Assembly: GCF_019799905.1 (NCBI RefSeq)
Contig: NZ_JABGCI010000001.1
Coordinates: 62,001-126,000 of the forward strand
DNA length: 64,000 nt
Reading direction: 5' to 3'
Origin: Trujillonella endophytica
GTDB taxonomy: Bacteria; Actinomycetota; Actinomycetes; Mycobacteriales; Geodermatophilaceae
Shown here piece after piece: positions 62,473 through 64,000 of this stretch. The number at the start of each line of letters is the position of its first letter. Within the stretch, counting starts at the first letter, position 1. The notes beneath the pieces were generated by a model. The model ran no database searches and was not told where the DNA came from. It was given only the letters and a program-made list of their open reading frames with translations. The position numbers and the translations under genes were made by a program.

Positions 62473-62799
62473 ATGACCGCACCGACATCGGGTGGGTGGA
62501 CCTTCCTGTCCAACCACGGTCACGTCCTGGTCGGGCTGGCCGCCGACCCTGACGCGCGCATGCGCGACATCGCCGCCCGGGTCGGCATCACCGAACGCGC
62601 GGTGCAGGCGATCGTCCGCGACCTGGAGCAGGCAGGGTACGTCGTCCGGCGTCGCATCGGCCGGCGCAACAGCTACACCATCGCCGGTGAGGCCCGCTTC
62701 CGGCACTCGCTCGAACAGCACGTCCGCGTCGGCGACTTCCTCGCGCTGGTCAGCGGGGACCCGACCACCGACGCCCCCGGCGCTGCCGGTTCCGGCTGA
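62473..62799 (+). CDS. Winged-helix transcriptional regulator
   Basis: A 108-residue DNA-binding protein: [60 protein letters not shown] gives a MarR/ArsR-like winged helix-turn-helix at residues ~10-70. The short C-terminus is likely a dimer helix. Metal or ligand residues are not evident. It follows the hydrolase by 100 bp and precedes the riboswitch; it could regulate either neighbour. Confidence 0.82.
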
Positions 62800-62941: not shown

Positions 62942-63041
62942 CGGAGGGGAGTACCCCTGAACGCCTCGTCGTCACCACGGCGCCTCATCGGCGCCCGGCG
63001 GGGCGGACCGGCTCACCACGGCCGGTCGGGAGAGACCTCCG
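62942..63041 (+). promoter_or_regulatory. yybP-ykoY-type manganese riboswitch
   Basis: The leader of the terC-like gene has the yybP-ykoY features: P1 strand CGGAGG (62942-62947), GGGGAGTA (62946-62953), GTCGTCA near 62969, a GC-rich middle hairpin, and the closing GAGACC with CCTCCG (63036-63041) that re-forms P1. The 3' strand CCTCCGGT (63036-63043) is also perfectly complementary to ACCGGAGG (63056-63063), which contains the Shine-Dalgarno, so metal binding should free translation. TerC proteins are typical targets of this riboswitch. Confidence 0.85.
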
Positions 63042-63070
63042 GTTGACGCACATCGACCGGAGGAGTGCTC

Positions 63071-64000
63071 GTGGACGTCCCGTTCTGGCTGTGGCTCGCC
63101 GTGCTCGGCGGCATCGTCGCCATGTTGGCCATCGACCTCGTCGCCCACCGGCGCGCACACGTGATCGGCGTGCGCGAGGCCGCCGGGTGGTCGGCGGTGT
63201 GGGTGGCGATCGGTGTGGCCTTCGGCGGGTGGATCTGGGCGGCGTACGGCGCCGAGCTCGGCCAGCAGTACTTCGCCGGATACCTCATCGAGAAGTCGCT
63301 GGCCGTGGACAACGTCTTCGTGTGGGCGATCATCTTCAGCTACTTCGCGGTGCCCCGGGAGTACCAGCACCGGGTGCTCTTCCTCGGCGTCCTCGGCGCG
63401 CTGGTGTTCCGCGGGCTGTTCATCGCCGGCGGATCGGTGCTCATCGCCAGCTTCGGCTGGGTGCTCTACCTGTTCGCCGCGTTCCTCCTCTTCACCGGCT
63501 ACCGGATGATCCGCCAGCGCGACGAGCACCTGGACCCCGAGCGGTCGAAGGCGCTGCGGCTGTTCCGCCGCTGGGTGCCGATGACCGACGCCTACCACGG
63601 CCAGCGCTTGCTCATCCGTCGCGGCGGCGCGCTCCTGGCCACGCCGCTGCTGGCCGTGCTGGTGCTCGTCGAGGTCACCGACATCATCTTCGCCGTCGAC
63701 TCGATCCCGGCGATCTTCGCCGTCACCGACGAGCCGTTCCTCGTCTTCACCGCCAACGCCTTCGCGATCCTGGGCCTGCGAGCCATGTACTTCCTGCTCG
63801 CCGACCTCATCCACCGCTTCGTCCACCTCAAGACCGGGCTCGCCCTCGTCCTGATCTGGGTCGGCATCAAGATGCTGCTCAAGGTCGACGTCTACTACGT
63901 CCCGACCACGGTCTCCCTCGCCGTCATCGCGACCATCATCGGCGGGTCCGTCTGGCTCAGCCTCCGGGCCACCCGCGGGCAGGACCGCCGCGCCCTGCCC
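63071..64000 (+). CDS. TerC-family membrane protein (partial, runs off the window)
   Basis: At least 310 residues of a TerC/Alx-like transporter with about eight or nine helices. Signatures are EKSLAVDNVFVWAIIFSYF and EVTDIIFAVDSIPAIFAVT, which contain the conserved Asp and Glu that line the putative metal path. Recent work links the family to manganese export, matching the upstream riboswitch. The GTG at 63071 follows GGAGGAG. The C-terminus lies beyond the window. Confidence 0.92.
   Translation, partial: MDVPFWLWLAVLGGIVAMLAIDLVAHRRAHVIGVREAAGWSAVWVAIGVAFGGWIWAAYGAELGQQYFAGYLIEKSLAVDNVFVWAIIFSYFAVPREYQHRVLFLGVLGALVFRGLFIAGGSVLIASFGWVLYLFAAFLLFTGYRMIRQRDEHLDPERSKALRLFRRWVPMTDAYHGQRLLIRRGGALLATPLLAVLVLVEVTDIIFAVDSIPAIFAVTDEPFLVFTANAFAILGLRAMYFLLADLIHRFVHLKTGLALVLIWVGIKMLLKVDVYYVPTTVSLAVIATIIGGSVWLSLRATRGQDRRALP

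Follow-up and report, generated by a model that had tools for sequence, protein, structure and literature searches.

The leader of a terC gene near the 3′ end of the DNA analysed here (64,000 nt in all, hereafter the window) raises the question of whether it is a manganese riboswitch of the yybP-ykoY class when the Rfam model of that class does not match it. On its 5′ side the leader is bordered by a MarR-like winged-helix ORF that ends at 62799, and on its 3′ side by the gene itself, whose product was confirmed as TerC (Pfam PF03741, 185.8 bits), as a preliminary description of this DNA had proposed. That description also named three consensus blocks in order, GGGGAGTA, GTCGTCA (62968-62974) and GAGACC, each of which was located at its given position, exact to the base, and the P1 strands CGGAGG (62942-62947) and CCTCCG (63036-63041), which are present in the sequence. 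Its assignment of the leader to the Mn2+-sensing class holds with two corrections, namely that the aptamer has no P2 and that the RF00080 check it proposed is insensitive to this form. The leader is a genuine member of the known class, in a P2-less form that is common among actinobacteria but missed by current annotation, as supported by its homology to the Escherichia coli alx leader and to a locus that RF00080 itself detects, its invariant L1/L3 core, the covariation of its helices and the cation-export genes downstream of its relatives. For the full reading, in which this RNA is a translational ON switch whose P1, stabilised by Mn2+, would free the Shine-Dalgarno (SD) sequence, we estimate a probability of about 85%.

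RF00080 (Rfam release 15) gave no match in the window at the gathering threshold, none in the leader alone at E 10 and none in the whole 5.35-Mb genome. The preliminary description had offered this search as the check, with a score below threshold speaking against its proposal, and below threshold is what was obtained. The cut-off of 45 bits, however, sets what the search reports and does not define the class biologically. In the E. coli control, where the alx and mntP leaders are both reported Mn2+ riboswitches (PMC9603457), RF00080 missed the alx leader entirely and gave the mntP leader 41.6 bits, under its own gathering threshold. Since the same model misses alx, which has been studied experimentally, the negative result at the window is a failure of model sensitivity toward the P2-less form, and an Mn2+ riboswitch can be present even where RF00080 finds nothing. 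At 40 loci found with model R1 (see below), RF00080 gave a score at only two, and this was 22.9 bits or less. An older Rfam version scored the yybP-ykoY leader of Corynebacterium glutamicum terC (cg2157), also seen in RNA-seq, at 49.1 bits (PMC3890552), and the present RF00080 found no match in the C. glutamicum control genome. In the printed consensus line of RF00080 the P1 strands are unpaired; the E. coli loci checked were L195:1876-2000 (+) and L196:3962-4058 (+). Sub-threshold matches of other Rfam families in the leader (Hammerhead_II at 19.7 bits, C4 antisense target and others) were rejected, being far under gathering and mostly on the opposite strand.

Leaders were collected from TerC relatives and BLASTN neighbours; most of 80 relatives, spread over Actinomycetia, have the same ordered blocks 5′ of terC. 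Model R1 was made from 35 leaders not more than 86% alike (alignment A1). The window site is in its training set, which inflates the R1 E-values for the window, and for this reason a second model, R2, was built from 16 leaders with no Geodermatophilaceae and used as a held-out test; the E-values of both models are rough, as the calibration was shortened. In addition to the window site, R2 detected the alx leader of E. coli (E 3e-7) and, at E 1.5e-5, L111, a locus that RF00080 also matches. R1 matched the alx leader as well (40.9 bits, E 7e-10) and did not match the E. coli mntP leader. Both models thus connect the leader, in sequence and structure, with an experimentally studied member of the class, and this cross-phylum match is the strongest evidence for membership.

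The shared structure was also supported by compensatory variation. In A1, 89.5% of cells were paired compared with 77.5% in shuffles, 20 pairs were changed on both sides, and the covariation score was 0.371 against 0.160 in shuffles, with slid controls all far lower. Because MAFFT does not align the variable arms correctly, a second count of covariation was made on A2, an alignment of 74 distinct sequences that is fitted to the model and leans to it, and there the score was 0.588 against 0.191. Helices P1.1, P1.2, P3.1 and P3.2 covary, as expected for the class. The features of the locus are as follows.

62942-63041, + strand: P2-less yybP-ykoY Mn2+ riboswitch aptamer, a three-way junction (R1 82.5 bits, E 6e-21, with the site in the training set; held-out R2 76.5 bits, E 1e-15; covariation).
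62942-62947, + strand: P1 (P1.1) 5′ strand CGGAGG, partner CCTCCG at 63036-63041 (covarying; GC, AU, GU and UA types in relatives).
62946-62953, + strand: GGGGAGTA, which holds the 5′ strand of L1; the alignment puts its conserved extruded A at 62950, and the block is near-invariant among the 76 sequences compared.
62954-62957, + strand: P1.2 5′ strand CCCC, partner GGGA at 63028-63031, with an outer C.A mismatch at the window site (helix 2, covarying as UA, CG, AU, GC).
62962-62971, + strand: P3.1 5′ strand CGCCTCGTCG, partner CGGCGGGGCG at 62995-63004 (model alignment; helix 3 in the covariation count).
62972-62978, + strand: L3 internal loop TCACCAC, whose A62974 corresponds to the adenosine that contacts Mn2+ (conserved as A in 75 of 76 sequences, a gap in one).
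62979-62994, + strand: P3.2 hairpin (helix 4, covarying).
63005-63027, + strand: variable hairpin (P4), 5′ of the P1.2 3′ strand (helix 5, two-sided changes in 5 of 6 pairs).
63032-63037, + strand: GAGACC, the L1 3′ strand continuing into P1 (near-invariant; identical in L1/P1.1 of the Xanthomonas oryzae riboswitch).
63036-63063, + strand: expression platform, hairpin CCTCCGGTTGA/TCGACCGGAGG, which competes with P1 and sequesters the SD (MFE in 35 of 35 relatives; compensatory changes).
63059-63063, + strand: SD sequence GGAGG, 7 nt 5′ of the GTG start (from the sequence).
63071-64000, + strand: TerC family membrane protein, starting with GTG at 63071 and running beyond the window end; full length 353 aa (locus L118; PF03741).

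The start of terC is 29 nt 3′ of the aptamer end, which places the aptamer in the 5′ leader of a gene of an Mn2+-exporter family, the usual setting of this class, and the 135-nt leader folds with z = -4.8. This fold, the recurrence of the arrangement in relatives, the held-out R2 score and the small number of R2 sites in the genome show that it exceeds chance. By alignment, the metal core formed by the L3 adenosine and L1 is complete at the window site. The L1 motif GGGGAGUA and GAGACC face each other across P1 and are near-invariant in the 76 relatives, and the CGUCA of L3, with its invariant adenosine, is framed by GUCG/CGGC of P3.1; both arrangements are characteristic of yybP-ykoY RNAs. 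The role of L1 in the Mn2+ riboswitch has been described, and N7 of the L3 adenosine, A41 in Lactococcus lactis and A48 in X. oryzae, contacts Mn2+ (PMC6754395). P2 and the four-way junction, which are seen in the two crystallised members, were not found at the window site, where P1.2 and P3.1 are joined only by a short linker. Among the aligned relatives this linker has a median length of 7 nt, which cannot accommodate the P2 hairpin seen in those members. The alx leader, in our own reading of the alignment and sequence, likewise has a short P1.2-P3.1 linker that leaves no room for P2, and P2 and the four-way junction are not class-defining. P2-like hairpins are present at loci L112, L115, L116, L117/L183 and L193, four of which are RF00080 matches. 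In the literature searched, which mostly excluded subscription journals, we found neither a P2-less form nor an actinobacterial survey. P2 appears dispensable, and this bears on the customary view of Mn2+ sensing by a four-way junction.

The 3′ strand of P1 has a second partner. The preliminary description had given an alternative pairing of 8 bp between CCTCCGGT (63036-63043) and ACCGGAGG (63056-63063); the complementarity exists, but the helix is longer, because folding gave 11 bp, 63036-63046 with 63053-63063, around a loop at 63047-63052. The P1 3′ strand is common to both helices, and the two pairings are therefore mutually exclusive. In all 35 leaders the MFE fold joined this strand to the downstream SD region and not to P1, and the P1 state lay above the SD-hairpin state by a median of 9.2 kcal/mol (8.4 kcal/mol in the window). 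In 31 of the 35 the SD hairpin outperformed at least 95% of linker shuffles, and compensatory changes among GC, AU and CG were found in relatives at hairpin positions 6-8. As the P1 5′ strand resembles an SD sequence, the pairing of CCUCC with the GGAGG of the SD comes partly free. Nevertheless, the conserved extension past this core, together with the compensatory changes, indicates that the hairpin is more than a free by-product of an SD-like P1. We conclude that the alternative helix sequestering the RBS is real and conserved. Neither an intrinsic terminator consensus nor a sigma-70 promoter consensus was seen in the leader.

R2 found only three sites in the 5.35-Mb genome, and SD-sequestering hairpins were recognised by inspection at all of them. 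The sites precede the terC gene of the window, a second TerC gene (L119, PF03741, 173 bits) and a GDT1/UPF0016 cation antiporter gene (L155, PF01169, 132 bits). A third TerC-like ORF, with a Pfam match in two pieces, lies just 3′ of the second riboswitch-preceded TerC (L197:2576-3496; G000 contig C9:83575-84495), and a search with filters off found no riboswitch site 5′ of it. When 198 actinobacterial genomes were searched, R1 matched 51 at E 1e-4, whereas RF00080 matched 7 at E 0.01, only one of them above its cut-off. This difference and the missed alx leader indicate that actinobacterial annotation probably lacks a large set of Mn2+-controlled genes. In Geodermatophilaceae, 55 of 60 genomes were matched by R1, usually in two or three copies. 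The 70 genes downstream of the actinobacterial matches, chosen by a codon-bias rule that may have picked a few wrongly, were mostly those of cation transporters (64 of 70: 37 TerC, 15 GDT1, 10 P-type cation ATPase and 2 CAX-type), and the rest comprised three M48, one M50, one SAICAR synthetase and one PGPGW. That a single RNA accompanies four unrelated families of cation transporters speaks for a metal as the ligand.

Several copies precede genes of other kinds. In three Geodermatophilaceae genomes the motif, scored at 72 to 75 bits, stands some 25 nt 5′ of the ORF for an ECF-type sigma factor (L028:1498-1594, − strand; L029:1501-1597, + strand; L219:1501-1599, − strand), and the ORF at L029 has the Pfam domains Sigma70_r2/r4. 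The position of these copies suggests a sigma factor controlled by Mn2+ at the three loci; no sigma-factor-linked copy was found in the window genome. In one actinobacterial family, copies of 41 to 49 bits stand before M48 (HtpX-like) membrane proteases (L177:1615-1704, − strand; L179:1619-1708, − strand; L189:180-275, + strand). HtpX co-purifies with the TerC proteins MeeF and MeeY of Bacillus subtilis (PMC10246235), and the link between the motif and HtpX may be functional. Another copy (L139:1501-1587, + strand, 62.7 bits) precedes a CBS-domain-containing M50 protease of the site-2 type, in a genome that also has HtpX and CAX copies. At L178:211-304 (+ strand, 48.8 bits), a copy from a low-G+C actinobacterium has an expression platform that resembles a terminator (CCTTTACC...GGTAAAGGTTTTTT), and a SAICAR synthetase ORF lies 125 nt downstream.

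For the terC locus of this G+C-rich actinobacterium, these results lead us to propose a concrete and testable ON switch. At low Mn2+ the nascent leader would take its most stable fold, the 11-bp hairpin between the P1 3′ strand and the RBS, and TerC would stay untranslated. At high Mn2+ an ion would be held between L1 and L3 and would lock P1 (CGGAGG/CCTCCG), stabilisation of P1.1 by Mn2+ being an established effect in the class (PMC6754395, PMC11087558). The locked P1 would withdraw the anti-SD strand, so that GGAGG would be exposed and TerC made, and the product presumably exports or redistributes Mn2+. Homology is what points to Mn2+ as the probable ligand and to the ON direction, and control would probably be at translation. 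Given the gap of 8.4 kcal/mol in favour of the SD hairpin, Mn2+ and co-transcriptional folding would have to win before that hairpin forms; alternatively, the switch may leak or be OFF most of the time. The absence of P2, unlike in the two crystallised members, and the negative RF00080 search even at E 10 count against the proposal, as do this energy gap and the SD-like P1 5′ strand.

The same aptamer and ligand might instead act mainly on transcription, by Rho-dependent termination of the untranslated leader or by RNA decay, with the SD hairpin being secondary. There is a precedent in E. coli mntP, on which Rho and the riboswitch are reported to act jointly (PMC11647493), but the leader here is without an intrinsic terminator, and an SD-burying hairpin conserved with compensatory changes would be unneeded for termination alone; we regard this reading as unlikely, although it is the most serious of the alternatives. 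It is still less probable that the leader, though related to the Mn2+ riboswitch, has drifted towards a different signal, such as some other divalent metal or a combination of Mn2+ and alkaline pH. The missing P2, the response of alx to alkaline pH as well (PMC9603457) and the broad cation specificity of some downstream families would fit such a drift, whereas neither the adenosine that contacts Mn2+ nor the L1 core varies, and the set of TerC, GDT1 and P-type ATPase matches genes that Mn2+ riboswitches are known to control.

That the RBS hairpin is simply constitutive, with a chance likeness to the aptamer and no ligand sensing, would agree with the negative RF00080 search and with the predicted folding, which is dominated by the SD hairpin. 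However, the aptamer part covaries across the phylum, the motif recurs before unrelated cation-transport families, and R1 and R2 find the alx leader of E. coli, which makes this explanation highly improbable. An Mn2+-responsive translational switch thus remains our preferred reading. The locus itself is ordinary in kind, and the point of interest is the under-detected clade. We consider the chances evenly balanced that the P2-less (alx-like) subtype, which the current Rfam model largely fails to see, is one of the main controls on Mn2+ efflux in Actinomycetota, with several copies per genome over TerC, GDT1, P-type ATPases and CAX; certain lineages would also have copies over an ECF sigma factor or over M48/HtpX and M50 membrane metalloproteases. 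If true, this would imply a trans-acting Mn2+ regulon that goes beyond exporter control.

We finally compared the window site with known systems. The C. glutamicum terC (cg2157) leader, compared here by its published description, is likewise an actinobacterial terC leader (PMC3890552). The crystallised L. lactis yybP-ykoY and X. oryzae yebN RNAs share the L1/L3 metal core, and their switch helix, which Mn2+ stabilises, is again P1.1 (PMC6754395), but they have a four-way junction with P2, and the rival of P1.1 is a terminator instead of an SD hairpin. The E. coli mntP leader is an Mn2+-dependent ON switch at translation initiation (PMC9603457), the direction we infer for the window site, although it governs MntP, is scored by RF00080 and is not matched by R1. 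The closest counterpart in layout is the E. coli alx leader, which also lacks P2, carries GGGGAGUA, UCGUCA, CCGG and GAGACC in this order, lies 5′ of a TerC-family gene and is matched by models built from actinobacterial leaders. It differs in phylum, in its low G+C content, in a long hairpin within the variable arm, in a different, larger expression platform and in being pH-responsive as well. Translational fusions of the alx 5′UTR to lacZ were induced 3- to 6.5-fold by Mn (PMC9603457).
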